Shown here: positions 22,701 through 55,724 of the stretch, piece by piece
Numbering within the stretch: position 1 is the first letter of the stretch
Layout: each line of letters starts with the position of its first letter
Source of the DNA: Desulfamplus sp.
GTDB lineage: Bacteria > Desulfobacterota > Desulfobacteria > Desulfobacterales > Desulfobacteraceae
Reading direction: 5' to 3'
DNA: 64,000 nt
Assembly (NCBI GenBank): GCA_015232455.1
Contig: JADFZQ010000009.1
Coordinates: forward strand, 62,001 to 126,000
Notes under the pieces: generated by a model
What the model was told of the DNA's origin: nothing
Seen by the model: only the letters and a program-made list of their open reading frames with translations
Databases searched by the model: none
Made by a program: the position numbers and the translations under genes

Positions 22701-23066
22701 ATGTCCAAAACAATTATGACTGCTGATGACTCCAGCAGTATAAGACAGATGGTGAGTTTCACGTTAAAACAGGCAGGCTACAGCGTTGTTGAGGCTATAG
22801 ATGGAAGTGATGCATTGAACAAACTTAAAACAAATGCTGTCCACATGTTGATCTCAGATTTGAATATGCCCAAGATAGATGGCATTGAGCTGATAAAACA
22901 GGTAAGGGCAATGCCTCAATATAAGTTTATCCCCATAATCATGCTGACAACTGAATCTCAGGCAGACATGAAACAAAAGGGAAAGGCAGCAGGTGCCACA
23001 GGCTGGATTGTAAAACCTTTTCAACCCGAACAACTGCTTTCAGTTATTAAAAAAGTCCTCAGATAA
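22701..23066 (+). CDS. cheY: CheY response regulator
   Basis: 121 residues, a stand-alone receiver. ADDSSSIRQMV gives the acidic pair, LISDLNMPKIDGIEL the phospho-Asp, MLTTESQ the Thr and VKPFQPEQLL the Lys. There is no output domain, as expected of CheY, which carries phosphate from CheA to a motor or other target. It is separated from the STAS gene by 162 bases with no clear promoter and precedes cheA by 97 bases. Confidence 0.92.
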   Translation: MSKTIMTADDSSSIRQMVSFTLKQAGYSVVEAIDGSDALNKLKTNAVHMLISDLNMPKIDGIELIKQVRAMPQYKFIPIIMLTTESQADMKQKGKAAGATGWIVKPFQPEQLLSVIKKVLR

Positions 23067-23163
23067 TTCCATTCCATTGAACCCCAGATTTAGACATTCC
23101 CTTGCAAGAGAAGAGGGAACTTAAAATAAGAGGTTTTCAATAAACCAATAAGGAACAAAAAAT

Positions 23164-25275
23164 ATGGTCGAACCAAACAGGTTTATCGAAGGATTCCGCC
23201 AAGAGGCTCAAGAACTTTTGGTTGAGATTGAAGCAGCAGTGCTTGACATTGAAGAGAACCCCGAAGAACATGAAGCTGTCAACCGTCTCTTCAGAGCTAT
23301 GCATACTATTAAAGGTTCTGGTGCAATGTTCGGTTTTGATGATATTGCAAAGTTTGCCCATCATGTTGAGACTGCTTTAGATAAAGTGCGTGGAGGGTTA
23401 GTGCCTATAACCCGTGAGTTAATTGATTTAACCCTCTCATCAAGAGATCAAATTAAAATAATGCTCGAAGCCTCAGCAACAGGAGAAGCATTTGATCAGG
23501 AGAAAAACATTGAAATAATCAATGCCTTGAAGATCATCATGGGAGAAGGCACGGAGCTATCATCTGATGATAAATCTTCTCATAAACAGAAAAAGAACCT
23601 ATCTTTCCCAGAACCTGAGATTGATCAACAAATTCCAATGACATACAGAATTCGCCTAAAACCCTCTGCTGATATATTTAAGTCAGGCATGGATCCAGCT
23701 TTGCTCATTGAAGACCTTAAGGCTCTTGGGGAGTGTAAAGTTATTGCTCAAACTGAACTTATCCCTGATTTGGCATTGTATAACCCAGAACTTTGTTATC
23801 TTTTTTGGGACATCACACTTACAACAGCAAAAGATGTTAATGCCATAAAAGATGTCTTTATTTTTGTTGAAGATGATTGCGATATTTCAATTGAGATCAT
23901 TGAAAAACACGATCTCGTTGAATCACTTACTCCTTTACCTCGTCTTGGTGAAATTCTTATTGAACGCGGGGATACCACAAAAGAGATTGTAGATAAGACT
24001 CTTGCAAAGCAAAAACGGATTGGTGAGATTCTTATTGAAAATGGTGCGGTCTCTCCAGAAAAGGTTAAATCAGCCCTTTCCGAACAAGAGGTGCTGGGTA
24101 AACATAAACCATCTGTCTTAGTATCTTCGGTGCGGGTTCCCTCTGACAGGTTAGATAAACTTATCAATCTTGTGGGAGAGCTTGTAATTACGCAGGCAAG
24201 GTTAAGCCAAGTTTCAGCTAAGGTTAATAATATTGAACTCTCAGAGCCTGTTGAAGAGGTAGAACGCCTTACAGGAGAACTTCGAGATAATGTGCTTAAT
24301 ATCAGAATGATGCCAATTGGCACAACGTTCAGTAAATTCAGGCGACTTGTCCGCGATCTTTCTGGTGAACTTGGGAAAAAGATCGATCTTGTAACTTATG
24401 GGGCAGAGACTGAGATGGATAAAACAGTGCTTGAACGTTTAGATGATCCCCTTGTTCATCTAATACGCAACTGCATTGATCACGGTATCCAATCTCCTGA
24501 AGAGAGAAAGAGAGTTGGGAAATCTGAAAGAGGAACAATTACGCTCTCCGCACACCACAGAGGTACAAACGTTGTAATTAAAATCAGTGATGATGGCTCT
24601 GGTCTAAAATCTGAAGTGATAAGGAAAAAGGCAGAAGAAAAGGGACTTATAACAAGTGATCAAGAGTTATCCCGTAAAGAGATGTTTGCTTTGATATTTG
24701 CTCCTGGATTTTCAACAGCCGAATCTATTACCAATGTCTCTGGTCGCGGGGTGGGTATGGATGTTGTTAAAAAAACAATTGAATCTTTAAGAGGCTCAAT
24801 TGAGATCGACAGCATCACTGATCAGGGGACAACCATTACCCTTATTTTGCCACTTACTTTAGCAATCATTCATGGACTTTTAGTTACCATAGGTAATGAT
24901 TTCTTTGTTCTTCCACTTATGACAGTTGAGGAGTGTGTGGAGATGAAGAAAAGTAACTCAGAAAAGAACAGAGGGAGAAATATCTTAAATGTCAGAGGTG
25001 AGATTGTTCCATATATTCGTTTAAGAGATAATTTTAAAATTAACTGCAACCAAAGAGACCTTGAACATGTTGTAATTGCAGATGTAAATGGTAGAAGAAT
25101 AGGTTTTGTTGTGGATAATGTGATTGGAGGACACCAAACTGTTATAAAGTCATTGGGTCCCATTTTCGCCAATGTCCGCGATATATCAGGTGCTACCATA
25201 CTTGGAGACGGAACAGTTGCCCTTATTTTAGATACAAACGTCCTTCTTGAAAAGGCTATGGAACGATTGCCTTAA
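23164..25275 (+). CDS. cheA: Chemotaxis histidine kinase CheA with an inserted repeat domain
   Basis: 703 residues. The HPt domain at the N-terminus has AMHTIKGSGAMFGFDDI with His47 as phosphorylation site. A middle region of about 130-250 is not a clear CheY-binding P2. Residues about 257-318 hold two copies of an (L/I)GEILIE(R/N)G motif, RLGEILIERGDTTKEIVDKT and RIGEILIENGAVSPEKVKSA, like the N-terminal modules of GspE/MshE ATPases. Then P3 dimerisation (SDRLDKLINLVGELVITQAR), P4 kinase (LVHLIRNCIDHGI, GRGVGMDVVKKTI) and a C-terminal CheW-like domain (HGLLVTIGNDFFVLPL). It should phosphorylate CheY and CheB in the same operon. Confidence 0.92.
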   Translation: MVEPNRFIEGFRQEAQELLVEIEAAVLDIEENPEEHEAVNRLFRAMHTIKGSGAMFGFDDIAKFAHHVETALDKVRGGLVPITRELIDLTLSSRDQIKIMLEASATGEAFDQEKNIEIINALKIIMGEGTELSSDDKSSHKQKKNLSFPEPEIDQQIPMTYRIRLKPSADIFKSGMDPALLIEDLKALGECKVIAQTELIPDLALYNPELCYLFWDITLTTAKDVNAIKDVFIFVEDDCDISIEIIEKHDLVESLTPLPRLGEILIERGDTTKEIVDKTLAKQKRIGEILIENGAVSPEKVKSALSEQEVLGKHKPSVLVSSVRVPSDRLDKLINLVGELVITQARLSQVSAKVNNIELSEPVEEVERLTGELRDNVLNIRMMPIGTTFSKFRRLVRDLSGELGKKIDLVTYGAETEMDKTVLERLDDPLVHLIRNCIDHGIQSPEERKRVGKSERGTITLSAHHRGTNVVIKISDDGSGLKSEVIRKKAEEKGLITSDQELSRKEMFALIFAPGFSTAESITNVSGRGVGMDVVKKTIESLRGSIEIDSITDQGTTITLILPLTLAIIHGLLVTIGNDFFVLPLMTVEECVEMKKSNSEKNRGRNILNVRGEIVPYIRLRDNFKINCNQRDLEHVVIADVNGRRIGFVVDNVIGGHQTVIKSLGPIFANVRDISGATILGDGTVALILDTNVLLEKAMERLP

Positions 25276-25317
25276 CTTGGGACACAGACTTTATAAATTT
25301 CATAAGGAGATTTAATT

Positions 25318-25815
25318 ATGAGCGTTGATGGAATTACGGAAACAAACCAATATCTGACATTCAAACTTGATGACGAAATTTATGCACTGGGTATTAACCA
25401 TGTTAGAGAAGTGCTTGATTTCACTAAAATAACAAGAGTTCCTCGTATGCCTGATTTCATGTGCGGTGTGCTTAACCTCAGGGGCGGAGTTGTCCCTGTG
25501 GTTGATCTACGTATAAAATTTGCCATGCCTGTAAAAGAGAAAACTGTTGATACTTGTATTATTATTATTGAGATCACCATTGGTGAAGAGGAGACCCTTC
25601 TTGGCATAATGGCTGATTCAGTTCAGGAAGTTATGAGCCTTGAACCTGACCAGATAAAACCTCCACCAAAGATAGGAACACGCCTCAAGACAGAGTTCAT
25701 AAAAGGTATGGGCAAAAAAAATGACGAATTCATAATCATTCTTGAGTGCGATAAGGTATTTTCATCTGAAGAGTTAGTTGTGGTTCAAGATTTTGAGTCC
25801 CAGCCCGAAGCGTAA
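25318..25815 (+). CDS. cheW: CheW adaptor
   Basis: 165 residues, one CheW domain: QYLTFKLDDEIYALGINHVREVL at the start, then RVPRMPDFMCGVLNLRGGVVPVVDLR, the conserved receptor/CheA contact segment, and LLGIMADSVQEVMSL. It links receptors to CheA. The strong AAGGAG site 8 bases ahead of ATG 25318, 42 bases after cheA, supports co-expression. The short C-terminal tail (about 10 acidic residues) is not conserved in my memory of the family. Confidence 0.93.
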   Translation: MSVDGITETNQYLTFKLDDEIYALGINHVREVLDFTKITRVPRMPDFMCGVLNLRGGVVPVVDLRIKFAMPVKEKTVDTCIIIIEITIGEEETLLGIMADSVQEVMSLEPDQIKPPPKIGTRLKTEFIKGMGKKNDEFIIILECDKVFSSEELVVVQDFESQPEA

Positions 25816-25835
25816 TTTTAATATGGTATTAAACT

Positions 25836-25864
25836 GTAGAGACCCACGGCGTGCGTCTCTCTAC
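25836..25864. repeat. Family C hairpin
   Basis: GTAGAGACCCACGGC paired with GTGCGTCTCTCTAC, a GC-rich stem in AT-rich surroundings, without family A or B ends. It lies in the gap between cheW and the first MCP gene. Other copies are at 2821, 2944, 31417, 50792 and 63428. Confidence 0.75.
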
Positions 25865-25961
25865 TTGTTCATTGATTAATAGATCGTTTAGGTTAGAATC
25901 TAAAAAGACATGGGCTAAATTGGGCTTTTGGCAGTGCTTATATTAAAAGGGAGAGTTTAGA

Positions 25962-28274
25962 ATGAAAATTTCAGACGTCAAGATCGGCACTAAACTTTAT
26001 TCAAGTTTTATCTGCGTAGTTATGATCTTTGCAGGCATAGCAGCTTATCAGATTTTTCAACTATATCAATTGGCTCAAATTCAAGATGCGGGTGCAAAAA
26101 GAGCAGCAGATTCAATTGAAGTTTTTGGTATTATGGAGCAGTTTAATTCAGTCTATACGGTAATTGCCGATGCTATTATAAATCGAGATATGGAAGAGAC
26201 AAAAGCCTCTTTTGAACAAATCAAAAAGAGTGCCAAAAGCAATATTGCCATATTGCATGGACTTGTAGATACGGCTGAAGAGAAAAGCTGGGCTGCTGAT
26301 TTTGAAACCGCATACGAAAATTATACTGATCTGTTTGAAAAGCAGATGCTGCCGATTCTCTTAAAAAGTGAATCTTTAAAAAACGGGCATCAGATTGAAT
26401 CTGCGGAAATGTCGGCTGATGAAGCCAAAATAAAAGAGCTTGACGATCAGGTTGACAAACTTAGAGTGGCTGCTGGAGTCCCGATTGCAAAGATAGTGGA
26501 GTCTTTGAAAGCAGAGTCTATTGAGGGTGATGAACTCTACGATACAATTGCTCAAAAAACTCGTATTGTCTCGATTACGCTTGCACTTGTTGGAATCATG
26601 GTGGCACTTTTTCTTGCATGGTTGATAACACGAGGTATTACCCGTCCTATCAACGCTTGTGTTGATGCTGCTAATAAAATAGCTGTTGGAAACACAGATG
26701 TTGAGCTTGACACTACAAGAAGAGATGAGCTTGGCATACTTCAGGTAGCAATGCAAAAAATGGTTCATGCTATCAACGCTCTTATCAAAGATGCAACTAT
26801 GCTTTCCACAGCCGCTGTGGCAGGCGAACTTGCAACCCGTGCAGATGCAGCAAAACATCATGGAGATTTTGGCAAAATAGTTACAGGTATTAATGAAACT
26901 CTTGATGCAGTGATTAAGCCCTTGAACGTGGCGGCAAAATATATTGATCGTATAAGTGTTGGGGATTTACCAGAAAAGATTACAGACGAATATCGGGGTG
27001 ATTTTAACAGCATAAAAAACAACCTTAATCTTCTTATTGATGCTATGAATAATGTTACTGAAGCTGCACAAACCATGTCTAAAGGTGATTTGACGGTCAA
27101 TGTGCAGGAGCGTTCCTCTTCTGATAAACTTATGCAGGCACTTAACTCCATGATAAGAAATTTGAAAGCTACAGTTGCAGTAGCTGAAACAATTGCCACA
27201 GGCGATCTCACGATCAAGGTAAACCTTCTTTCAGAAAAAGATACGTTAGGTCAGGCGTTAAAGCAGATGGTTATGGATTTAAGAGAGATTGTATTGGATG
27301 TTAAATCTGCTGCTAATAATGTATCTGGTGGTAGTCAGCAATTAAGTGCCACAGCCGAACAAATGTCTCAAGGAGCAACAGAACAGGCAGCCTCAGCAGA
27401 AGAGGCATCATCATCAATGGAAGAGATGTCAGCAAATATCAGCCAAAATGCAGAAAATGCCCAGCAGACAGAGCGTCTTGCAATACAGGCTGCAAATGAT
27501 GCAGCAAAAGGAGGAGAAGCAGTATCTAAAACTGTAGTTGCTATGAAATCTATTGCCGAGAAGATTTCAATTATTGAAGAGATAGCAAGACAGACAAATA
27601 TGCTTGCTCTTAATGCGGCAATTGAGGCAGCCCGTGCTGGTGAACATGGCAAGGGATTTGCCGTGGTTGCAGATGCAGTAAGAAAACTTGCAGAGAGAAG
27701 CCAAGCTGCTGCTGGAGAGATAAGTAAACTATCTATCACAAGTGTTCAGATTGCTGAAAATGCAGGCGAAATGCTTGAAAAAATGGTTCCTGATATAAGA
27801 AAAACAGCAGAGCTTGTTCAAGAGATCAATGCTGCATCAAATGAACAAAATACAGGTGCTGCACAGATAAATCAGGCACTTCAACAGCTTGATCAGATTA
27901 TTCAGCAGAATGCTTCAGCGTCAGAAGAGATGTCAGCAACCTCTGAGGAGCTTTCCTCTCAGGCTGATAACCTCCTTGATATAATTAACTATTTTAAGAT
28001 TGATTCATCTCATGGTGATGGGCAAAAGAGAGTTGGTGGTGGAAATAGGCAGTCTGAATTTCATGGCAAAAGTTCAGAAGGCAACCCAAAAAATAATGAT
28101 GCTTATACAAGAGCCTCAGAAAGCTATACAAAAGCAATTAGTGGTAGCAGAAGAAGAGCAATAACTAATATTCAACAAAGCTCCAGAACATCTAAAGGAG
28201 ATGGGATTTCCTTAGATATGGGCAGCATCAACCCAAATAATGACTCCCTTGATGATGAGTTTGAAAAATATTGA
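25962..28274 (+). CDS. Methyl-accepting chemotaxis protein with serial HAMP-like units
   Basis: 770 residues. Membrane segments near 13-32 and 202-222 enclose a four-helix-bundle-like periplasmic domain of about 170 residues. A HAMP domain follows ([19 protein letters not shown]), then further HAMP-like units ([41 protein letters not shown]). The signalling domain, about 440-680, has the canonical tip [20 protein letters not shown] flexible tail of about 80 Ser/Gly/Arg/Asn residues ends [15 protein letters not shown] has the aromatic-x-x-aromatic pattern of the NWETF tether that binds CheR/CheB. The second MCP shares this end. Confidence 0.93.
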
Positions 28275-28378
28275 GGATTATTGCAGACTCAAAAGTTGAT
28301 TGTCAGTTTGAAAAATATTGATTTAAAAGAGAAGTAAATAACAATCACTGATTCCCAAAATACTAAGGAGATAAAGTT

Positions 28379-30433
28379 ATGAAAAGAAATAGAAACATGG
28401 CTTTTTTTGTTTTGTTTGCAATAGTTATTGTGTTTACTCTCAGCAATTTGAATGTTCATGCCTCATCTTCAGCATCATCTGATGAGGCTGCTTCAATAGC
28501 AAAAGATGACAGCAATAAGCATCTTGCAAATGAAGATGAAAATAGCATTTTTACTAAAAGAGATGAAAATAAGAGATTTAACAAAGGGGAATCAGAAAGA
28601 AAAGAGAGCGAAGAAGAGAACAAACAAGAGCAAAGCAATAAAGTTGATGAAAAGAGTTTTATTCAAACTTATATGGTAATGATTGTGTCAATTGCAATTT
28701 TCATATTGTTTTTAGTTCTCTTTTTATATAAGGGAGCAGAAATATTAAGACGGATAAATATGCGAAAACAGGTTATCCTTACTGTATCTGTCTTAAATAT
28801 AATGATCGTTGTCTGCTCTTTGTTTGCCTCTATAAAGGTCAATATAATTGGAACTGAGTTAAAATCTATTGCCGAAGAGGATATGCCTTTGACCGAGATC
28901 ATTACTCAAATAACAGTCAATCAACTCTCACAATCTGTCTGGTTTGAAAGGATGCTAAGACATGGAGAGATGGTTCAGAGGGTTCCAGAGGCAGCAGTTG
29001 ATCTTGAAAATGCAAAAAAAGAGTATATGGATTATACCCTTTTAATTGATAAAGAGATACAACAAGGTGAACAGATAGCAAAACAGGCTATTCTTAGTGC
29101 AGATTCATTACAAAATAGAAATGAATTTGAAGAGATATTGAACCATCTTAAACAAATTGAAGAGATACATGCAGAGTATGAAGATGCTGTGCTAAATGTG
29201 GTTAAGTTGTTCAAGGAGCAGCAATTAACAAAAATTCAAGAGCTTACAGAAGATATTGGAGAGAGAGAAAGCAGGCTTAACAGTGATCTTAAGGAGTTTC
29301 TCAGAAGTGTTGAAAAATTTACTGAAGAGTCAACTGAAATTGCACATAATGAGGAGATTAAAACTTTAACTGGAATGATATTGCTATCAATAGCATCTCT
29401 TATCTTTGCTTTTATGATCTGCACAATGCTTCTTAAAAACATGCGTCAGATAGTTGATAATATTTATAGAAGTGCTGAAAATGTTGCTGCTGGAAGTCAG
29501 GAGATGAGTGCAACCGCCGAGCAGATGGCTGCTGGTGCTTCAGAGCAAGCAGCTTCTGCCGAGGAGGCTTCTGCCTCAATGGAAGAGATGACAGCAAATA
29601 TAATACAGAGTGCGGACAATTCACAGCAAACACAGCGAATTGCTGTGAAAGTTGCTGAAGATGCTGTAAGAGGCGGTGAAGCCGTCCAAAAAACTGTTGA
29701 GGCAATGAAGCAAATTTCAAGTAAAATTACAATTATTGAAGAGATTTCAAGACAGACAAACATGCTTGCACTAAATGCTGCGATTGAGGCTGCCCGTGCA
29801 GGAGAACATGGAAAAGGGTTTGCTGTGGTTGCTGATGCTGTCAGAAAACTTGCTGAAAGAAGTCAAACTGCTGCAAGTGAGATAAGCAATATTTCCGCAT
29901 CAAGTGTTGGAATTGCAGTTGAAGCTGGTGAAATGCTTGCCAAAATAGTGCCTGATATAAAAAAAACAGCCGATCTTGTTGAAGAGATCAATGCTGCTGC
30001 AAGTGAGCAGAAAACAGGCACAGAGCAGATAAATCAAGCACTTCAGCAGCTTGATCAGGTGATTCAGAGTAATGCTGCTGCTTCAGAAGAGATGTCTTCA
30101 ACATCAGAAGAGTTGGCTGCACAAGCTGAAACTCTTAAAAATTCAATCAATTTGCTGGATAATATCAGAGGGTTAGAGAGAAAAGATGAATTTTATAATT
30201 TTAAAGATAGTAGAAAGGATAGCTACTCCTCTAAAAAAGGACCTCGTAACACAGGTGGAATAACAAACCACTCTTTTGAAACAAATAAGAGGCAACAATC
30301 TGAACCTAATCCACATATTAGAAAACAACAGCCTGAAACAAAGTCTCACCTAAAAAAAGGTGGGATTCATATTGAAATGCACGACAGTGATCTTCAGACA
30401 GACAGACTTGATGATGATTTTGAAAAATATTGA
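28379..30433 (+). CDS. Methyl-accepting chemotaxis protein with four membrane segments and no HAMP
   Basis: 684 residues. A signal-like segment (about 8-28) is followed by 70 very polar residues (Ser/Glu/Lys/Asn), two close membrane segments (about 99-121 and 131-152), an extracytoplasmic helical region, and a further segment near 335-352. The signalling helices begin immediately ([20 protein letters not shown]) without a HAMP domain. The tip [19 protein letters not shown] matches the first MCP almost exactly, implying recent duplication of that half or shared arrays. The tail ends [11 protein letters not shown], again an F-x-x-Y tether. If the first segment is cleaved as a signal peptide, the Lys/Glu-rich leader would be outside the membrane. 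Confidence 0.9.
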
Positions 30434-30484
30434 GGATTAGACAGAGTTAAAATTTGATAATTAGTTTGAAAACAATTGGAAAAA

Positions 30485-31354
30485 ATGACAGATTATAATT
30501 CACATAATGGCTCTGTAAGCCACCTTTCTATTGAGCTTTTTAGGGAGCTTGGGAATTTTATTCATGCTCAGATTGGCATTAAAATGCCTGATGCCAAGAG
30601 AAACATGGTAGAATCTCGCCTGCACAAGAGACTTATAAACCTAAACATGAGAAGTTATACAGAGTATTGCAAATATCTTTTTAGTGCCGAAGGAATTGAA
30701 AGAGAACTTCCAGAGTTCATTAATCAGATCACAACCAATAAAACAGATTTTTTCAGAGAGCCAGACCATTTTACATTTCTTATGGAACATGCTTTGCCTG
30801 AAATTGTAAAGAGATTCAAAACAGGGTCCACAAATAGGCTCTCATTGTGGTCTGCTGCCTGCTCCAGAGGGCATGAACCCTATACAGTTGCTATGACTCT
30901 GAATGAGTTTGCAAGGCAGAATCCAAGACTCTCATTAACATTTTCTGTGTTGGCTACAGATATTTCTACTCAAGTTCTTGAAGTGGCAAAGAAGGCTGTT
31001 TATAGCCATGATGAGATTGAACCTGTTCCAATGGAGCTTAGGAAAAGATATATTTTAAGGAGCAAAAATAGAAAAAAAGATATGGTGCGAATTGCTCCTG
31101 AATTAAGAAAAATGGTTCAATTCAGATGGATAAACCTCATAAGCAGTAAACTTGAGATAAGAGAACCTATGGATATTATATTTTGTAGAAACGTGATGAT
31201 CTATTTTGATAGACCAACACAAGAGAAATTGATAGAAAAACTTTGCGGTTATCTCAAGCCTAAGGGGTATCTTTTTGTTGGTCATTCTGAAGTTTTAAAT
31301 TGCCATAATACACCCCTTGCACCTATGGGACATGCAATTTATAAAAAGTTGTAA
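30485..31354 (+). CDS. cheR: CheR protein-glutamate methyltransferase
   Basis: About 290 residues. The N-terminal CheR helical domain has IGIKMPDAKRNMVESRLHKR; the SAM domain has TTNKTDFFREPDHF, LWSAACSRGHEPYTVAMTL (motif I), VLATDIS, IIFCRNVMIYFD and YLFVGHSEVL. It methylates MCP glutamates. ATG 30485 is preferred, with GGA six bases ahead; an in-frame TTG lies at 30476. Motif I reads CSRGHEPY where CST/SGEEPY is usual, a mild change. It follows the second MCP by about 50 bases, and the two MCPs carry C-terminal tethers that could recruit it. Confidence 0.92.
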   Translation: MTDYNSHNGSVSHLSIELFRELGNFIHAQIGIKMPDAKRNMVESRLHKRLINLNMRSYTEYCKYLFSAEGIERELPEFINQITTNKTDFFREPDHFTFLMEHALPEIVKRFKTGSTNRLSLWSAACSRGHEPYTVAMTLNEFARQNPRLSLTFSVLATDISTQVLEVAKKAVYSHDEIEPVPMELRKRYILRSKNRKKDMVRIAPELRKMVQFRWINLISSKLEIREPMDIIFCRNVMIYFDRPTQEKLIEKLCGYLKPKGYLFVGHSEVLNCHNTPLAPMGHAIYKKL

Positions 31355-31416
31355 TCTAAGAATAGCTATAACTTCCCTAAATGATTTGTGAAAATATAAA
31401 TAATCAATATTTACAA

Positions 31417-31445
31417 GTAGAGACGTACGGCTGTGCATCTCTAAG
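31417..31445. repeat. Family C hairpin before cheB
   Basis: GTAGAGACGTACGGC pairs with GTGCATCTCTAAG. The hairpin lies just ahead of cheB; the first in-frame GTG (31445) overlaps its last base, another reason to prefer a later start for cheB. A hairpin here could also affect mRNA stability between cheR and cheB. Confidence 0.7.
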
Positions 31446-31471
31446 TGATATTACAAAAGCAAATGGTGATA

Positions 31472-32548
31472 ATGAAAAATAAAATTCAAGTACTTATTGT
31501 TGATGATTCCGCATTAGTGCGTCAGGCTCTTTCAGATGTGCTCTCTTCTGACCCTGAAATTGAAGTTATGGCAACAGCATCAGACCCTTATATTGCTGCT
31601 TCTAAAATGAGAACTCAAGTTCCTGATGTCATCACCCTTGATGTTGAGATGCCACGCATGGATGGAATCACATTTCTTCAAAAGATAATGTCTCAACACC
31701 CAATACCTGTTGTTATCTGCTCAAGTCTTGCAGGAGAGGGAAGTGCTACTGCTTTTAAAGCACTTGAATATGGGGCTGTTGAAATTATTCAAAAACCGAG
31801 CATGGGGACAAAAAAGTTTATTGAAGAGTCAAGGATAAAAATTTGTGATACCATTAAAGCTGCTGCTCTCTCAAAAGCCAAAAAGATCAACGAATTCAGA
31901 AAAGTGCCTCCAAAACTTACTGCTGATGCTGTTATAGCAAAATCGAACAGCAGAGCTATGGTTGAAACAACCGATAAAATCGTGGCTGTTGGTGCATCAA
32001 CAGGTGGAACAGAAGCTCTAAGGGTTCTTTTAGAAGCATTGCCTACCGATTCTCCTGGTATTGTAATTGTACAGCACATGCCTGAAAATTTTACTAAAGC
32101 TTTTGCCAAAAGGTTAGACGGTCTATGCAAGGTTTCAGTGAAAGAAGCTGTGAATAATGACCCTGTGCTGCCGGGTCAAGTATTGATTGCCCCTGGAAAT
32201 GATCACATGCTGCTAAAACGGAGTGGGGCACGTTATTATGTTGAAGTCAAATCAGGACCCTTAGTTTCAAGGCACAGACCTTCAGTCGATGTTCTGTTCC
32301 GCTCAACAGCAAGATATGCGGGGCAAAATGCTGTTGGAGTTATAATGACAGGCATGGGTGATGATGGTGCACAAGGAATGCTCGAAATGAAAGAGGCAGG
32401 TGCCTTTACAATTGCTCAAGATGAAAAAACGTGCGTTGTATTTGGTATGCCCCATGAGGCTATCAAAAGAAATGCAGTTGACAGAGTCGTTCCACTTGAT
32501 GCTATTGCCAGAACTTTGTTGCAAAAATGTGGCAGATCTCATCTGTAA
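31472..32548 (+). CDS. cheB: CheB protein-glutamate methylesterase/deamidase
   Basis: About 358 residues from ATG 31472, which starts the receiver core directly ([20 protein letters not shown]). In-frame GTG 31445 and ATG 31463 are alternatives. Receiver: VDDSA acidic pair, [11 protein letters not shown] phospho-Asp, IQKPSM Lys. The esterase has the catalytic triad in order: Ser in [12 protein letters not shown], His in [14 protein letters not shown], Asp in [15 protein letters not shown]. It demethylates or deamidates MCPs when phosphorylated by CheA, opposing CheR. Complete and apparently functional. Confidence 0.93.
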
Positions 32549-32603
32549 AAAGATTGTTGTAGAATTTATGTGTAAAAATGTTATGGAAGATTTATAAATT
32601 GTT

Positions 32604-33164
32604 ATGATGGATACACGGGTTTTTATTAAAATAGGAGAATACTATGTAACTCAAGCACCAATATTTATTGGGACAGTATTGGGTTCATGTGTTGGAGTCT
32701 GTCTCTTTGAGAAACAGAAGCGTATTGGCGGATTGAATCATATTCTTTTACCGGGTAACCCTGATTTTGAACATTACAATGACTCTGCCCGCTATGGTAT
32801 CAATGCTATGGAAATTCTTATTAATGGAATTATGAAGATGGGGGGCAAAAAAGAGAATATTATTGCAAAAGCATTTGGTGGAGCATGTGTTACAAGCAGC
32901 TTTTCTTGTGAAAATGGACCTGGACAGAAAAACATTGAATTTGTAAGAAGATTTCTAAAAGACGAAAGGATAAAATTAGTGAGCTACGACTTGGGAGGCT
33001 ATGATATTCGCAAAATTTTTCTAAACTCAAATACTGGAGATGTATTTCTCAAACGCCTTAACTCATCTTTGTCCTCTAAAATCAACCAGATAGAAAAACA
33101 AAATTTAGAAAAGCAGAAGGCAGAGAAAAAACAACAAAAACATGTCATTGAACTTTTTGAATAA
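32604..33164 (+). CDS. cheD: CheD chemoreceptor glutamine deamidase, active-site residues intact
   Basis: 186 residues. FIGTVLGSCVGVCLFEK carries Thr24 and the catalytic Cys29; RIGGLNHILLPG carries His46; AKAFGGACV follows. These are the residues required by CheD for deamidating receptor Gln and for binding CheC where that exists. No cheC is present in the window. A Lys/Gln-rich tail of about 30 residues ends HVIELFE. It is 55 bases after cheB and 18 bases before the aspartoacylase-family gene. A second CheD homologue at 43740 lacks the Cys. Confidence 0.92.
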   Translation: MMDTRVFIKIGEYYVTQAPIFIGTVLGSCVGVCLFEKQKRIGGLNHILLPGNPDFEHYNDSARYGINAMEILINGIMKMGGKKENIIAKAFGGACVTSSFSCENGPGQKNIEFVRRFLKDERIKLVSYDLGGYDIRKIFLNSNTGDVFLKRLNSSLSSKINQIEKQNLEKQKAEKKQQKHVIELFE

Positions 33165-37292: not shown

Positions 37293-37922
37293 TTATTTAT
37301 CTTGTGTTCTCCAAAAATCTCTGCTCTCTTTAAGAATATCCTCAATATCGTCAGAATGACTAAGCTGATTTAAGTCAGCTATAGGATCAAGCTCTTCTTC
37401 AGGTTCATTCAATTCATTTAAGTCAGCAATTGGATCAAGTTCACCCGCATCTTTCTCATCTTCGAGTTGGTCGAGTATATCTCCATCGCCGTCTCCAAGT
37501 ATATCTTCATCTTCAAGAGAAGTAATATCATCAATAATAAGTTCATCATCATCAAGTAGTGGATCATAAGATTTGATTTTAGTATGGTTATCTATCTTAT
37601 TATCTTCTGCATGTGTAGAGTCTATCTTATCTGGGGATATATTATATGGTTCTGGAATATAGTTGCCTTTTCTATCAAACATTATTGACATAGCTGTTTG
37701 CAGTTCAAAATCAACTCTAAATGCAATCTCTCCTTTATGGACAATAATCTCACCACCATTTACATCAAAAGATAAAGAGCTATCTTTATTAAGATCAAAA
37801 GAAGCTGACTTGATTCTTTGTATAAAAATTTCCTTAATAGTATCCCAATCAAGGTCATCTTTAATTGATTCTATCAAATCTCTTTCGCCTGATTTTATGA
37901 CATCTGGCTCTGTAACTTTCAA
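37293..37922 (-). CDS. Acidic protein of unknown function with internal repeat
   Basis: 209 residues starting at TTG 37922 behind AGAGGTG. The first 90 residues look folded (SASFDLNKDSSLSFDVNGGE, IAFRVDFELQTAMSIMFDRK); the remainder is extremely rich in Asp and Glu. Two copies of DPIADLN(E/Q)L appear about 20 residues apart near 160-195, and the protein ends ILKESRDFWRTQDK. No membrane segment or known domain is seen. It lies 57 bases downstream of the receiver-SBP gene and 71 upstream of pckG on the same strand. A docking or scaffold role for an acidic repeat tail is possible but unproven. Confidence 0.6.
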   Translation of the reverse strand: MKVTEPDVIKSGERDLIESIKDDLDWDTIKEIFIQRIKSASFDLNKDSSLSFDVNGGEIIVHKGEIAFRVDFELQTAMSIMFDRKGNYIPEPYNISPDKIDSTHAEDNKIDNHTKIKSYDPLLDDDELIIDDITSLEDEDILGDGDGDILDQLEDEKDAGELDPIADLNELNEPEEELDPIADLNQLSHSDDIEDILKESRDFWRTQDK

Positions 37923-37979
37923 CCTTCACCTCTTGAAATGAATGAAAATTTATCTAAATCATTAAAATAGCAACTTCAA

Positions 37980-39353
37980 TTAACCTTTAAGTACTTTATC
38001 AGCAAAAGATGTATTTACAAATTTTTCAAGATCGATCAATCTGCCAATCTCCATGACATCGTGCATATATTTTTGTATTACATCAAAATCTTCAATAACA
38101 GGATAAAGATCATCCATTTTAATTGCTAAAGGTTGGGAAAATACCTTTTCAAGAACTTTAGTGTTAAGCCCAAGCTGTCCGTCAGGATCAAGAAATTTAA
38201 CAGCAATTTCAGCAGCTCTTACCTTATCTTGCTCAACGTATTGTCCTGTCTCAATGAGTAAGTCAACAAACTCTTGAACAGCATCAGGGTATTTTTCAAT
38301 AAAATCTTTTTGCATAGCAACAATACAGCATGGATGTTTATCCCATCTTGTTGCAGATATAAATTCAAGATTGCCGATCTCTGTTGCAATTGCCTTTGTA
38401 GCAATTGGTTCAGCCACCATAAAACCTGCAACATCTTCATTTTCCTTCATAATGCCCGGCATCTTAATTGGTGGAACAACCTCAAATCTTACATTAATAG
38501 CCTTTTTACCCGGAACACCTGGTTTTAATCCAAGCTCTTTTAGAAATTGGTGTGCCAACATGTGATGAATTGACATTTTGTGCGGAATATCAACAACTTT
38601 GTATTTGTAGAAACTCTGTAGAGAGTCAAAGCGGGGATCATAGTGGCGACTTCTGACAAAGGTGCTGCCGTTTTTGTGGGCAAGAAGCACAAGTTGTATG
38701 GGCGAATCATAAGCAAAAAGGTCCATAGCAATCGGAGCAAGCACAAATGCACAGTCAATTTCACCTGTTTCAAGCCCCTCTTGTATAGGATTCCAACCTG
38801 GCTTACGATCTGTTTTTAGATCAAAGAATCTTGGTATAACCTGTCCAGACTCTATTCTATGTTTTAATGCACCAAGTGCAAGGTGATCTGTAATTTGAAT
38901 ATGGGCAACAGTAAGCTCAACTTTACCATCTACTACATTACGCTTTTTAGGTCCAGATACAGCCACAGCTTCAGGGGCAAACACCTTGTATATTGCATCT
39001 TTTATCTGGTTTGAATCAAATGGTTTTGGCACATGTCCATTACCCTTTGCTTCATAAATAGCGATCTGCTGCCCTTTATCTGCCTGTGCGGTTGCCATTA
39101 TGAATGGGATATTTTGGTAGGGTGGGGTCTTTCTTACCCATTGAAGAAACTCTAAGCCATCCATTCTTGGCATATTCCAGTCACTGATAATCAGATCTGG
39201 TGGTGATTCTTGAACCTTTTTAACACCATCGCTGCCATCTATAGCTACAACAATATTCTCAAACCCTGCTTTATTTAGCATCTGTTTGAACATAATGCGC
39301 ATAGTGCCTGAATCATCTGCTATCAGAATTTTCATTTTTGGATCAACTGCCAT
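37980..39353 (-). CDS. CheY-type receiver fused to a NrtA/TauA-like substrate-binding domain
   Basis: 457 residues starting at ATG 39353 with a good GGAG site. Residues 1-125 are an intact receiver: Asp13/Asp14 (ILIADDSGTMR), phospho-Asp58 (IISDWNMPRMDG), Thr88 (IMATAQ), Lys110 (HVPKPFD). After a short linker, about 138-457 is a periplasmic-binding-protein fold of the nitrate/taurine group: ITDHLALGALKHRIESGQ, GEIDCAFVLAPIAMD, PHKMSIHHMLAHQFLKELG, VAGFMVAEPIATKAI and KHPCCIVAMQKDF. There is no signal peptide, so the binding domain is cytoplasmic. It is the fifth gene of the ABC operon. This architecture implies that ligand binding and phosphorylation influence one another; no such function is known to me. 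Confidence 0.88.
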   Translation of the reverse strand: MAVDPKMKILIADDSGTMRIMFKQMLNKAGFENIVVAIDGSDGVKKVQESPPDLIISDWNMPRMDGLEFLQWVRKTPPYQNIPFIMATAQADKGQQIAIYEAKGNGHVPKPFDSNQIKDAIYKVFAPEAVAVSGPKKRNVVDGKVELTVAHIQITDHLALGALKHRIESGQVIPRFFDLKTDRKPGWNPIQEGLETGEIDCAFVLAPIAMDLFAYDSPIQLVLLAHKNGSTFVRSRHYDPRFDSLQSFYKYKVVDIPHKMSIHHMLAHQFLKELGLKPGVPGKKAINVRFEVVPPIKMPGIMKENEDVAGFMVAEPIATKAIATEIGNLEFISATRWDKHPCCIVAMQKDFIEKYPDAVQEFVDLLIETGQYVEQDKVRAAEIAVKFLDPDGQLGLNTKVLEKVFSQPLAIKMDDLYPVIEDFDVIQKYMHDVMEIGRLIDLEKFVNTSFADKVLKG

Positions 39354-39428
39354 AAAAACGCTCCTTAATTTTTATATCTTCAAAAATAGAACCATTTATA
39401 TTTTTCATGTTAGAAAAAATCACTTTTA

Positions 39429-40358
39429 TCACTCAATCCACGATTTTGTAAAAGCACTCTGAATTATCTGAAATATTTTATCTAAAGTAAAACCTAAAAT
39501 TCCAATCGCAACAATAATTGCCATAAGGGTGTCGTAAGCCATAGTGTCTCTTGCGTCATTTATCAGATAACCTAATCCACTTGCAACTCCTAAAAATTCT
39601 GCTGGAACAAGCACAATCCAAGCAACTCCTAATGCTAACCTAAGACTTGCCATAATACCCGGAAGAGACGCTGGAATTATAATAGTATAAAATATCTGAA
39701 AGTGGCTGGCTCCCTGATTCATAGCCATCTTTATCCAACTTGGATTCACATTTGCAGCTCCTGATGCTGTATTCAAAATAATGGGCCACACAGTTGCCAT
39801 TACAATAAGAAAATAAATTGCAGATTCAAAATCTGTAAATATAATCAACGCAATAGGCATCCATGCAAGAGGACTTATCATTCTTAGAAATTGAATTGGG
39901 GCGTAGGCAATATTTCTCAAAATTGGATAGTATCCTGTAACAAGACCTAAAGGTATTCCGATAAAAGCAGCAATAAGTATTCCAATAAATACTCTGCTCA
40001 TACTTGCCCATACAGACAAGTAAAATCTCTCTTGAAGCAGAAGTTTATAAAGAGCCTTAAATGTAGGAAAAGGGAGAAAAATATCTCCAGAGGAGATTGA
40101 AGGAACAAGTAAAAAAATCCACCCTGCTACAAACCATAGTAGTAAAAGAATCAATATCCCAAGCAGTTCAAAACGTATATCTGATGCTCTATATCTGAAA
40201 AAAGTGCCAAGACTTATCATCTTCTCTTTTTTTGAGATGCTGTTTATTTCACCATCTGATAATTTATAGCTCTTTTTCTCTTTTTTCTCAGATTTTGATA
40301 TGAGGTGTTTATCAACCAATTTCAATGACCTCTTCGCGAGAGAAAATATTAGGATCAA
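39429..40358 (-). CDS. ABC transporter permease, NrtB/SsuC/TauC type
   Basis: 309 residues from TTG 40358 (another TTG at 40319 is possible and would leave a shorter overlap with the upstream gene). About 50 polar residues precede the first membrane segment (FELLGILILLLLWFVAGWIF). Six membrane segments are visible, with the ATPase-contact loop AMNQGASHFQIFYTIIIP and ASLPGIMASLRLALGVAWI. With the ATPase at 41669 and the binding protein at 40312 it makes an importer for a small anion or organosulfur/nitrogen compound. The overlap with the binding-protein gene supports coupled translation. Confidence 0.9.
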   Translation of the reverse strand: MILIFSLAKRSLKLVDKHLISKSEKKEKKSYKLSDGEINSISKKEKMISLGTFFRYRASDIRFELLGILILLLLWFVAGWIFLLVPSISSGDIFLPFPTFKALYKLLLQERFYLSVWASMSRVFIGILIAAFIGIPLGLVTGYYPILRNIAYAPIQFLRMISPLAWMPIALIIFTDFESAIYFLIVMATVWPIILNTASGAANVNPSWIKMAMNQGASHFQIFYTIIIPASLPGIMASLRLALGVAWIVLVPAEFLGVASGLGYLINDARDTMAYDTLMAIIVAIGILGFTLDKIFQIIQSAFTKSWIE

Positions 40359-41676
40359 CTACATCTTTATTGTTAGAATCAAAAGTTCCGTAAACACTCA
40401 TATTTTTCATAGCTTTTTTAACAAAAGTGTCATCTACAAGCTCTGCTATTGCTAAATTTGGATCAATAGCAATATCTTTTAGAAATTTGGAATCTCCTTC
40501 AACTTTTGTTTTTGCCATCTGGTTAATAATAAACTTAGTTGCTGAAGGGTAAGGATATGGCTGAAAACCAATTCTCCCTATATTCCATTCTGGATGAATT
40601 ATAGGGCGAGGTGGTTCGCCCTCTAAATAATCTTTTAGATCATATTTGGTAAATACCCTCAAAAGCACATCTTCATTTACAGGAAGATAGCCATCTCCTT
40701 TATCTCGGCTTAAAATATTTGCGGCTTTTTCAGGATTTTTTGTGCACCACAGCTGTGCCCTTACAACAGCATTAATGGCTTTTTGAATCATAGCAGGTTG
40801 AGTTTTTATAAAGTTTTCATGGGAGACAACCACACAGCAAGGGTGATTTTTCCAAATATCACCTGTAAACCTCATGATTCTGCCCTTTATTTTCATCTCT
40901 GCAAGAGCGTTAAACGGCTCTGCTACAATAAATCCGTCCATTTTTTTACCAAGAAGTGCTGGAGGCATTTCAGGTGGCGGAAGAACAAAAAGATTTACCT
41001 CATCAGGTGCAATTACAGCACCTTGCGGTTTGATAACAGGCTTTAACCCTTTTGCCATTATTCCCATTTGAACCATGTAGTTGTGGGTAGAATACCATGA
41101 TGGAACAGCAATCTGTCTGCCTCCTAAATCGCCAAAACCTCTTATGTTTGAATCCCCACGAACAGTCAAAGCACTGCCATTTGTATGATCCCACGCAAGC
41201 ACTTTAACTGGAATTTTTTGCTTAAATCTCATCCAGATAGGTATTGGAAACATTAAATGGGTAAAGTTAAACTGACCTCCAATAAATGATTCTGATAACA
41301 CTGTCCACGATCTAACCATTACTGGCTTTGGAACAATTAGCCCCTCTTCTTTAAAAAAACCAAGACTATATGCAATTAAAAGTGGGGTTGCATCTGTTAT
41401 TGGAATATATCCAATTTTAAGCTCTTGCTCATTGTTGTTACTGGCATAAGCAGAAGAGGTGGTAAATGAAGTTGAAAATAAGCTATTTGATATTAGAGAA
41501 GAGCCAAAAGCTGCTCCAGCTCCAATGGTTATTGAAGCACTCTTTTTAAGGAATGATCTTCTGTCAAATAGATCAATAGTATTAATATCGTCATTAATTC
41601 TATTAAGAGCATCATCTCTATTGCTATTTTCATCAACACCATTAAAATCATTTTTCTCTTTTATATAATCACTCAT
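40312..41676 (-). CDS. Tat-exported ABC substrate-binding protein, NrtA/CmpA-like
   Basis: About 454 residues from ATG 41676, which has AGGAGA upstream; an in-frame ATG at 41694 lacks a site. After an unusually long polar leader of about 35 residues comes a twin-arginine signal, DRRSFLKKSASITIGAG. The mature part resembles nitrate/bicarbonate-type binding proteins (LKIGYIPITDATPLLIAYSL, GGRQIAVPSWYSTHNYMVQM, FIVAEPFNALAEMKIKGR, KNHPCCVVVSHENF). It would deliver substrate to the permease. The HPCC motif is shared with the receiver-fused module at 37980, so both may bind the same ligand. Ligand not determined. Confidence 0.9.
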   Translation of the reverse strand: MSDYIKEKNDFNGVDENSNRDDALNRINDDINTIDLFDRRSFLKKSASITIGAGAAFGSSLISNSLFSTSFTTSSAYASNNNEQELKIGYIPITDATPLLIAYSLGFFKEEGLIVPKPVMVRSWTVLSESFIGGQFNFTHLMFPIPIWMRFKQKIPVKVLAWDHTNGSALTVRGDSNIRGFGDLGGRQIAVPSWYSTHNYMVQMGIMAKGLKPVIKPQGAVIAPDEVNLFVLPPPEMPPALLGKKMDGFIVAEPFNALAEMKIKGRIMRFTGDIWKNHPCCVVVSHENFIKTQPAMIQKAINAVVRAQLWCTKNPEKAANILSRDKGDGYLPVNEDVLLRVFTKYDLKDYLEGEPPRPIIHPEWNIGRIGFQPYPYPSATKFIINQMAKTKVEGDSKFLKDIAIDPNLAIAELVDDTFVKKAMKNMSVYGTFDSNNKDVVDPNIFSREEVIEIG

Positions 41677-42502
41677 CAAATGCAATCTCCTCATTCATTT
41701 GGTTCATGGAAAAAAACTTTCTGCTGCCTACGTGTGCTTGCTTTAAATTTGCGAGTATTTCTGCACGATACTCCTTAAATGAAGGAAGATTTATATCTCG
41801 AGGATATGGATCATCAATATCATAAATTCCACTTACACAACCAGGATAACCACCAATCAGGATAATTTTATTACCAAGAAGTATTGCTTCGTTAATGTCA
41901 TGAGTTACGAAAACTGCTGTAAACTTTTCGCTTAACCAAATGTTTACAAGCTCTTCTTGTATATGGGCTTGAGTAAAAGTATCTAATGAGGCAAAAGGTT
42001 CATCAAGAAGAAGCATCTCAGCACGACCAACTAATGCTCTTGCAAGACAGACTCTTTGAGCCATTCCAAGCGAAAGAGAAACAGGTTTTGCATTTTCAAA
42101 TCCTGAAAGCCCCATCATTTCAATAAATTGATAGACTCTATAGTCAAGATTTTCAATATCTCCCCTTAGTTTACACCCATAAGCAACATTATCTTTTACA
42201 GTAAGCCAAGGGATCAATACTGGTTGTTGAAATAGCATAGAGCGAGATGGTTCAATTCCATTTACTTTATTTCCATCTACAAAAACCTCTCCTGATGTTG
42301 GTTTTTCAAGCCCTGCTAAAAGGTTTAACAAAGTCGTCTTTCCGCCACCAGATTCTCCAAGTATAACGACAAAATCACCGCTATTTACGGAAAAGGATAT
42401 ATTGTCTAATACAATATTTTCTCCGCCATCAAAACGAGGAAAAATTTTGGATACATTGCAAACGTCTATTTTCAATTTATTATGCCCCAGCCTCAAGTGC
42501 AA
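41669..42502 (-). CDS. ABC transporter ATP-binding protein, NrtD/SsuB/TauB type
   Basis: 277 residues. Walker A GESGGGKTTLLNLL, Q-loop FQQPVLIPWL, signature LSLGMAQRVCLARALV and Walker B MLLLDEPFASLD are present; the C-terminal part includes FVTHDINEAILLG. The listed start is TTG 42502, inside the end of the upstream gene; TTG 42475, just after that gene's stop and with GGGG upstream, is equally good. It overlaps the next gene by 8 bases at ATGAGTGA. It energises uptake through the 39429 permease. Confidence 0.93.
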   Translation of the reverse strand: MHLRLGHNKLKIDVCNVSKIFPRFDGGENIVLDNISFSVNSGDFVVILGESGGGKTTLLNLLAGLEKPTSGEVFVDGNKVNGIEPSRSMLFQQPVLIPWLTVKDNVAYGCKLRGDIENLDYRVYQFIEMMGLSGFENAKPVSLSLGMAQRVCLARALVGRAEMLLLDEPFASLDTFTQAHIQEELVNIWLSEKFTAVFVTHDINEAILLGNKIILIGGYPGCVSGIYDIDDPYPRDINLPSFKEYRAEILANLKQAHVGSRKFFSMNQMNEEIAFDE

Positions 42503-43427
42503 AACTTCTATCTACAAAATTATCCATATATATTATGTTTTTCATTATTCCCATATCATTAACCATGAAGCGATTAATAACTTCAAGTGATTTAATATCT
42601 GGCATAAGTGAGTTCGGTGTGTTTGGCAAAAAAGATGAGAACATAAACTCAAGAATCTCTCTATCTTGAAAACGTCTAAACTTATCAAAAAACTCTCTTG
42701 AAAGTCGATACAAATCAGTCGAACCTTTATATATAAAATGGCTTGAAGCTACCATAAGATGAATTATATCCATAAGATGTCTGCGATAATCCTTAATAAC
42801 ATAATCGTGTATAACTAAAACTGAGTTTGGGTGAGATGTCCAAATACGAGACGAAGGTAATATCACTTTACCCCAGTTATTTTTAATAACCATAGAACCA
42901 AAAGGTTCTTCTATAAAAACACCACCGATTTCGTTTGATTCATCATTATTTAACATTTCAGGAACGATAAACGGTGGAACAATTTCGATATATACATCTG
43001 GATCACTATCATTTTCAAGCCCTGCTTTCAATCTTGCTGAAGCCATTAGTCGATAAAAAAGAAGATTATGGACAGAAAGATAGTTAGATATAAGAACAGT
43101 TTTCCCTTTAAAATCTGTAAGTTTATTTATGTTTGCAGCTCTATTACCAATTATATATGCTCCGGGGCGGGAATCAAAAAGCACCAATTTCATCTCCATT
43201 CCAGAGTCAAAAAGAGCCATAGCTTCAGGAAGAGGAAGGAATGCTCCATGAAGATCACCATTGCAAAAGGCTTGTTTTATCTGACTCCAACTGCCAAAAG
43301 AGACTGCTGTCATAAGGTGATCAGTGTGTTTAAGAAGAGCTGCTCCAGAACCATCATAAGCAAATCCAAGCATCAGATGTTCAAGAATCCTTAAATGTCC
43401 TATCCTGATAAATGGGAGTCTATTCAA
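42480..43427 (-). CDS. Cytoplasmic substrate-binding-fold protein, paralogue of the ABC binding proteins
   Basis: 315 residues starting at TTG 43427, with AAGG 8 bases upstream and an in-frame stop two codons before it. The sequence begins directly in the fold (FIRIGHLRILEHLMLGFAYD) with no signal peptide or membrane segment. AFLPLPEAMALFDSG, FKGKTVLISNYLSVHNLLFY, GGVFIEEPFGSMVI and SHPNSVLVIHDYV align in order with the binding module of the receiver fusion, and both end with a similar (F/Y)V(D/N)xSFA stretch. It lacks the HPCC motif (SHPNS). It is the first gene of the ABC operon and may sense ligand inside the cell. A missed signal upstream is excluded by the stop codon. Confidence 0.8.
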   Translation of the reverse strand: MNRLPFIRIGHLRILEHLMLGFAYDGSGAALLKHTDHLMTAVSFGSWSQIKQAFCNGDLHGAFLPLPEAMALFDSGMEMKLVLFDSRPGAYIIGNRAANINKLTDFKGKTVLISNYLSVHNLLFYRLMASARLKAGLENDSDPDVYIEIVPPFIVPEMLNNDESNEIGGVFIEEPFGSMVIKNNWGKVILPSSRIWTSHPNSVLVIHDYVIKDYRRHLMDIIHLMVASSHFIYKGSTDLYRLSREFFDKFRRFQDREILEFMFSSFLPNTPNSLMPDIKSLEVINRFMVNDMGIMKNIIYMDNFVDRSFALEAGA

Positions 43428-43739: not shown

Positions 43740-44252
43740 ATGAGCAACCAAGATAACATTCCAACCAGATTAGATTACCTCCTAAAGCCTGGGTTTATCT
43801 ATCTGTCAGATAAGCCAATATCAATATCAACTGTAGTAGGCTCGTCTGTAGCCGTATGCCTATTTGATAAAAAGCAAAAAATAGGCGGAATGAACCATTT
43901 CCAGCTTCCAGAGATCAAAGATAGAGAAAAAGCAACGGCAATATATGGTAATGTTGCAAATTTAGCTTTAATAAAGATGATGTTATCAAATGGTTCAAAA
44001 GTCGGACACATTGAAGCACAAATATTTGGAGGTGCTTATAATCCAGAGGTATCTAACATAAACATAGGAATAAATAACATTAGGGCAGCACGCAAAATCT
44101 TAAATAGCAAAAGGATAAAAATTATATCAGAAGATGTTGGTGGTGAAGTTGGAAGAAAGATTATCTTCAACACGTCAACTTGTGAGATTGCCGTGTTGAA
44201 GGTTAAGACTTTAAGAGAATCTGACTGGTATCCTTATGAGAATAATCGGTAA
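43740..44252 (+). CDS. CheD homologue with catalytic Cys replaced by Ser
   Basis: 170 residues. ISTVVGSSVAVCLFDKK aligns with the active CheD at 32604 (IGTVLGSCVGVCLFEK): Thr31 is kept, Cys is Ser36. His53 is kept in IGGMNHFQLPE, and AQIFGGAYNPE follows. Without the Cys the deamidase/amidase reaction should not work, but binding of receptor-like or CheC-like partners could remain. The gene is divergent from the ABC operon that contains the receiver-SBP fusion and stands alone on its strand. The spacing from AAGGAA to ATG 43740 is long, so translation may be weak or the start imperfectly assigned. Confidence 0.85.
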   Translation: MSNQDNIPTRLDYLLKPGFIYLSDKPISISTVVGSSVAVCLFDKKQKIGGMNHFQLPEIKDREKATAIYGNVANLALIKMMLSNGSKVGHIEAQIFGGAYNPEVSNINIGINNIRAARKILNSKRIKIISEDVGGEVGRKIIFNTSTCEIAVLKVKTLRESDWYPYENNR

Positions 44253-55694: not shown

Positions 55695-55724
55695 GGAGAC
55701 CTCCTGCATATATATTGTAAAATC

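Follow-up and report, generated by a model that had tools for sequence, protein, structure and literature searches.

A conserved importer operon of Desulfamplus with cytosolic binding-protein copies as candidate intracellular sensors for chemotaxis

The 64-kb stretch of DNA analysed here (the window), from Desulfamplus of the Desulfobacteraceae, carries on its minus strand a six-gene operon, whose genes we label A to F from position 43427 downwards. The parts of an ATP-binding cassette (ABC) importer, recognized by sequence (ATPase B, exported binding protein C and permease D), lie in it together with two cytosolic proteins that have the same binding fold, the single-domain A and the receiver fusion E, and with a further protein, F. 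We lean towards a reading, drawn from sequence comparison and structure models, in which the operon supplies both the importer and cytosolic versions of its binding module, and in which these versions would serve as intracellular sensors that inform the chemotaxis array of the imported compound. Chemotaxis is usually described in terms of receptors that sense conditions outside or inside the cell, CheW as an adaptor, and CheA as a kinase without a sensor of its own. Here, one ligand-binding fold is found in fusions with a receiver, with CheW or CheA and with kinase domains, beside an importer carrying the same pocket.

The three binding modules of the operon are related, as a sequence-only reading of this DNA had proposed, with one of them exported and two kept inside. 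The family scores bear this out, with A, C and E all above the cut-off of the Pfam family NMT1_2 (PF13379; 68.9, 162.9 and 92.9 bits, respectively, cut-off 24.7), while the twin-arginine motif of C, as expected for export by the twin-arginine translocation (Tat) pathway, is invariant in 15 orthologues, and both A and E are without an export signal. The beginning (IxHLxITDHLxLG) and end (xFVxxxFA) that the same reading had seen shared by the signal-less and fused modules are nearly invariant columns in a 16-sequence alignment, and they mark a cytosolic family that stands apart from the exported protein in the tree. Among the cytosolic modules, which this tree sets apart from the exported C proteins, the E sequences make up a single clade and A clusters with standalone solute-binding proteins (SBPs; S in our labelling) that adjoin receiver-SBP genes; the outgroup is poor and long-branched and the root uncertain, and only the separation of cytosolic from exported proteins was used. 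A Tat-exported SBP of Rhabdochromatium (L245:5666-6646), with permease and ATPase genes adjoining, shares the ITDHL start with the cytosolic family and is intermediate between the two groups.

Structure models gave the same picture. E was modelled with a mean predicted local distance difference test (pLDDT) score of 90, with residues 3-129 matching CheY structures (Z-score ~23) and residues 142-457 matching 3un6 (36), NrtA (35), CmpA (34) and the CmpC regulatory domain (33). E also scores above the Pfam cut-off for Response_reg, and the receiver active-site residues given in Table 1 are invariant in 40 sequences. Judged by sequence and model, E is a CheY-type receiver with intact phosphorylation residues followed by a complete binding domain; it is neither a single-domain CheY, as it carries the C-terminal binding domain, nor a CheV, as Pfam finds no CheW domain in it. 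A, modelled alone (pLDDT 90), has the full binding-protein fold and the same best matches as E. Chance resemblance of the three modules is ruled out by the family scores and fold matches. Because the structures of Thi5, MqnD and DszB are also among these fold matches, and S and A are single-domain cytosolic proteins, we considered that the signal-less proteins might have this fold but act on the imported compound as enzymes or ligand carriers. This is very improbable, given that binding proteins and regulatory domains, not enzymes, top the fold matches, that fusions to receiver, CheW, CheA and kinase domains argue for sensing, and that no constant enzyme gene lies nearby.

The pockets, compared by sequence columns, link import and the internal modules. 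The E, W (a receiver-SBP-CheW protein), S and C proteins sampled all share W187, G229, S230, S261, H263, W337, H340, C342 and C343 (numbering of E), and Pro341 is the same in all of these save one exported relative. H263 of E matches His196 of NrtA and His409 of CmpC by motif, and CmpC is relieved by mutation at the His409 position. Lys269 of NrtA, a number taken from our own alignment numbering, aligns with the second cysteine of the HPCC motif in C (HPEK in NrtA), and the cysteine pair does not point to nitrate. As the same pocket columns recur in C, E, W and S, these proteins probably bind the same compound. The pocket of A is changed: in the window Asn-Ser replaces the cysteine pair and further positions differ, and about half of the sampled A proteins keep the pair. 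The pocket residues of E thus equal those of C and the pocket of A is partly degenerate, and the proposal that both internal copies sense the very compound that is imported fits E well, with its C-identical pocket residues and the co-occurrence of importer and module, but does not fit A well. The view that A senses ligand just as E would is weakened by the loss of pocket residues in this genus and the retention of the cysteine pair in only about half of the A proteins sampled. The pocket also bears on whether E's receiver serves as a phosphate sink or is a variant of CheY, with the binding domain a scaffold that no longer binds ligand. CheV, a receiver-bearing chemotaxis protein, is thought to be such a sink (PMC12691637), but a dead pocket would not be expected to remain invariant in 40 REC-SBP (receiver-SBP) sequences from several phyla and equal to that of the exported protein, and we hold this explanation to be improbable.

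The internal modules belong to chemotaxis, a point missed in the sequence-only reading: they are fused to CheW and CheA in relatives, are located in chemotaxis (che) clusters, and in the class searched are restricted to genomes with CheA. By Pfam, the module architectures found elsewhere comprise REC-SBP-CheW, REC-SBP-REC-SBP-CheW, REC-SBP-CheA (two genera), HK-REC-SBP (HK, histidine kinase) and standalone SBP, and their hosts are Desulfobacterota and, outside this phylum, Spirochaetes, a gammaproteobacterial metagenome-assembled genome, Rhabdochromatium, Melioribacteraceae and KSB1. Some che clusters contain the module, either in the order CheA-CheR-[REC-SBP-CheW] (L128, L130) or with REC-SBP inside (L063, L096). 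Among 291 genomes of the class, CheA was present in 84/84 with a strong cytosolic module vs 125/207 without (Fisher p 2e-15), in the window's family in 43/43 module genomes vs 7/17 others, and in two genera with both states in 13/13 carriers vs 6/15 non-carriers, although kinship inflates these figures since related genomes are not independent samples. Besides this caveat, two findings weigh against the sensing reading: several REC-SBP genomes have no importer of this type in the available sequence, so the ligand need not enter through the importer, and E, which lacks CheW and CheA domains of its own, is linked to chemotaxis by homology, context and co-occurrence.

The two REC-SBP-CheA genes (L154:3975-7058 in genome G200, and G144:C273:46-3198) encode a CheA kinase core with an N-terminal receiver and solute-binding domain. 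The former is flanked by receptor genes and a CheW gene, and Pfam found no Hpt domain in its product. The window's own genome encodes five NMT1_2 proteins, the exported C and the cytosolic A, E, S and W. W (L021:4225-6237, contig C44) is a paralogue of E with receiver, NMT1_2 and CheW domains by Pfam, and its neighbours are a divergent CheY-like gene and a PAS/GAF histidine kinase gene. S (L022:5251-6189, contig C55; also in L025 and L026) is a standalone cytosolic SBP, next to which, in the window's genome, lie genes of lptF/G type and kdtA type and ispD.

On the importer side, a cytosolic module was found in 61/61 genomes with a C-type importer protein, and in the window's family the presence of importer and cytosolic module agreed in 60/60 genomes. 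The two lie side by side in three arrangements, namely the six-gene operon, REC-SBP-CheW upstream, and a standalone SBP upstream: in two other families REC-SBP-CheW directly precedes ATPase, C and permease genes (L159, L206-L208), and in the spirochaete Marispirochaeta (L242) a standalone module and a TetR gene precede the same three. In another spirochaete (L243) the importer is followed by cheD. The gene order is not specific to this strain, as the series A-ATPase-SBP-permease-fusion recurs in 36 other loci of the Desulfobacteraceae, in genera including Desulfobacter, Desulfobacula, Desulfotignum, Desulfospira and Desulfobacterium, with other Desulfamplus genomes as the nearest named relatives. 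Hosts in pure culture exist (e.g. Desulfobacter vibrioformis, Desulfospira joergensenii). Among the six proteins, conservation between genera is highest for E (~72-80% identity) and lowest for A (~28-35%, and 42% to the more distant Desulfamplus). Of the 26 loci with sufficient flank, 21 have a che gene upstream of A (cheD in 20, a receptor (MCP) gene in 1), an adjacency that is largely inherited and not independent evidence. In the family labelled f14, SBP, E and F form a trio in one locus with the importer on a separate contig (L027, L028), which suggests that the six-gene operon is the union of a sensor trio and an importer. The permease open reading frame (ORF) of the latter locus (L028:6329-8149, G036) has 606 codons' worth of residues (606 aa), about twice the usual length, and may comprise two fused domains or be an overlong frame.

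The conserved order beside the importer also speaks for a reversed direction of signalling, in which A and E are trans-acting regulatory domains of the importer and the receiver lets a kinase gate transport, the signal running from chemotaxis or two-component pathways to the transporter. The structural match to the regulatory domains of CmpC and NrtC points the same way, and the CmpC domain reportedly keeps the ATPases blocked as long as no nitrate is bound (PMC13249358). We regard this as unlikely as an account of the whole system, because REC-SBP and REC-SBP-CheW are also encoded at a distance from any importer and by genomes that yielded none of this type, because fusion to CheW and CheA puts the module into the array, and because the f14 trio stands apart from the importer. 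In the preferred reading of the internal modules as sensors, the exported C would catch a small compound and the importer would carry it inside, raising its internal level, whereupon it would fill the cleft of the binding domain of E and of W. Closure of this domain would alter phosphate uptake from CheA by the attached receiver or, in the CheW and CheA fusions, array signalling by the attached CheW or CheA, and swimming would then follow the internal pool or the uptake of the compound and not its level outside. By analogy with the C-terminal regulatory domain of CmpC and NrtC, the degenerate A probably regulates the importer itself, on which it would act as a separate protein. The precedents of CheWS and CmpC, to which we return below, make these proposed sensing steps reasonable.

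By its sequence, the importer belongs to the NrtA/CmpA class. It shares with NrtABCD and CmpABCD an NMT1_2 binding protein and a related permease and ATPase, and differs from them in having one ATPase gene without a fused domain (B has 277 residues and no NMT1_2 match by Pfam), the regulatory-type domain being separate (A, E), and in having HPCC where they have the nitrate lysine or bicarbonate glutamate. A nitrate or bicarbonate importer was rejected on this pocket residue and on family scores below the NCBIfam cut-offs for NtrB and NtrCD (TIGR01183, permease, 131 bits vs 209; TIGR01184, ATPase, 186 bits vs 292). The Sao transporter was likewise rejected, with SaoA, SaoP and SaoX at 194.8/360, 147/295 and 50.4/300 bits, each below its NCBIfam cut-off.

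The last gene of the operon encodes a protein, F, with no match in Pfam or NCBIfam. Its orthologues keep an N-terminal domain of ~85 residues and, beyond an acidic stretch that varies, the C-terminal peptide DDIxxILKESRxFWxxK; F proteins of the f14 family carry a related peptide, KSxxFW, two or more times at their end. A conserved peptide of this kind, behind the acidic linker, ends the F proteins at L111 and L098 as well as that of the window. From this pattern of conservation, the peptide resembles a docking motif on a tether. Where the locus lacks the importer, F still accompanies E, which makes E or the array a likelier partner of F than the importer, and F is probably E's tethered partner.

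The coordinates of the operon and of the nearby chemotaxis genes are collected in Table 1. The six ORFs had been described as one overlapping run on the minus strand; their positions and strand were as described, and the overlap applies to A-D (A/B 23 nt, B/C 26 nt, C/D 47 nt, if the first start codons are taken) and not to E and F, which are preceded by gaps of 75 nt (after the permease gene) and 57 nt (after the fusion gene), respectively. For several genes the orthologues suggest later starts, and the true overlaps may be smaller. Promoter and terminator scans of the operon gave no clear excess over shuffled sequence. The window's che cluster, in which a CheA profile match above cut-off lies at position 86124 of the contig, is the nearest candidate partner pathway of the operon. 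Two cheD genes lie ~10 kb apart, one in this cluster (32604-33164) and one beside the importer operon. Elsewhere in the window, an ORF at 54072-55709 has nickel-iron hydrogenase large-subunit motifs (CGICS near its start, DPCMVC at its end), with no obvious small-subunit gene adjoining.

Table 1. Positions in the window of the operon genes, their domains and nearby chemotaxis genes
Feature	Position	Strand	Description
A	42480..43427	-	NMT1_2 solute-binding protein, signal-less, cytosolic, 315 aa; pocket partly degenerate, HPNS replacing HPCC
B	41669..42502	-	ABC ATPase of NrtC/D, Tau and Ssu type, without fused regulatory domain
C	40312..41694	-	NMT1_2 solute-binding protein, Tat-exported; HPCC where NrtA has nitrate-binding Lys269
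D	39429..40358	-	Permease, BPD_transp_1, NrtB/TauC-like
E	37980..39353	-	CheY-type receiver and cytosolic solute-binding domain, 457 aa
E, receiver domain	38979..39353	-	Residues 1-125; D14, D58, T88, K110 invariant
E, solute-binding domain	37983..38927	-	Residues 143-457; pocket W187, S261, H263, C342, C343
F	37293..37922	-	Conserved N-terminal domain of ~85 aa without a Pfam match, then a variable acidic linker and a conserved peptide at the C-terminus
F, C-terminal peptide	37296..37352	-	DDIEDILKESRDFWRTQDK; conserved across genera behind the variable linker
cheD	43740..44252	+	Divergent from A
Chemotaxis cluster	22701..33164	+	cheY, cheA, cheW, two receptors, cheR, cheB, cheD (named from sequence)

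Taken together, there is about an even chance that these proteins represent a widespread, receptor-free class of chemotaxis, in which an ABC-imported compound is read internally by binding-protein copies joined to CheY, CheW and CheA, and in which CheA gains a ligand input. If true, nutrient uptake would be directly coupled to steering, and the measuring of internal state during chemotaxis would become testable with purified domains. Most surprising for the specialist are a CheA with built-in binding-protein input and the breadth of the family. We found no description of REC-SBP or SBP-CheW proteins in the openly accessible parts of the literature searched, where the 30 undescribed architectures of a CheW survey may include them; the joining of a binding-protein sensor to CheY, CheW and CheA, plus an importer with the same pocket, likewise did not appear there and is what we consider new.

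Each element, taken singly, has a known counterpart, in CheV, CheWS, the CmpC regulatory domain and the importers of the NrtA class. In CheWS of Treponema denticola, a CheR-like domain fused to CheW senses intracellular S-adenosylmethionine (SAM) and modulates chemotaxis, so that, as proposed here, a cytosolic ligand sensor on a coupling domain brings an intracellular signal to the array without a receptor (PMC10653840). W is not a CheWS, its sensor being NMT1_2 without a CheR domain, and in place of a methyltransferase-like SAM sensor the proteins described here have a solute-binding fold with a receiver and are linked to an importer. The regulatory domain of CmpC, which reportedly frees the ATPases when it binds cytosolic nitrate (PMC13249358), is, like that of NrtC, a cytosolic copy of the binding fold of its own cyanobacterial importer and is among the best structural matches to our modules. 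Unlike these ATPase-fused domains, which gate transport, the modules here are separate or fused to receiver, CheW or CheA, and the nitrate-lysine position is a cysteine. CheV, like the W form, combines a CheW domain and a phosphorylatable receiver in one protein, whereas W has the binding domain in between, in the order REC-SBP-CheW, and the window's E has no CheW. Finally, a receiver domain is present in ~35% of CheA proteins (PMC10782961), which thereby resemble REC-SBP-CheA in joining receiver and kinase core in one protein, while the REC-SBP-CheA proteins of G200 and G144 have in addition a built-in binding-protein input.

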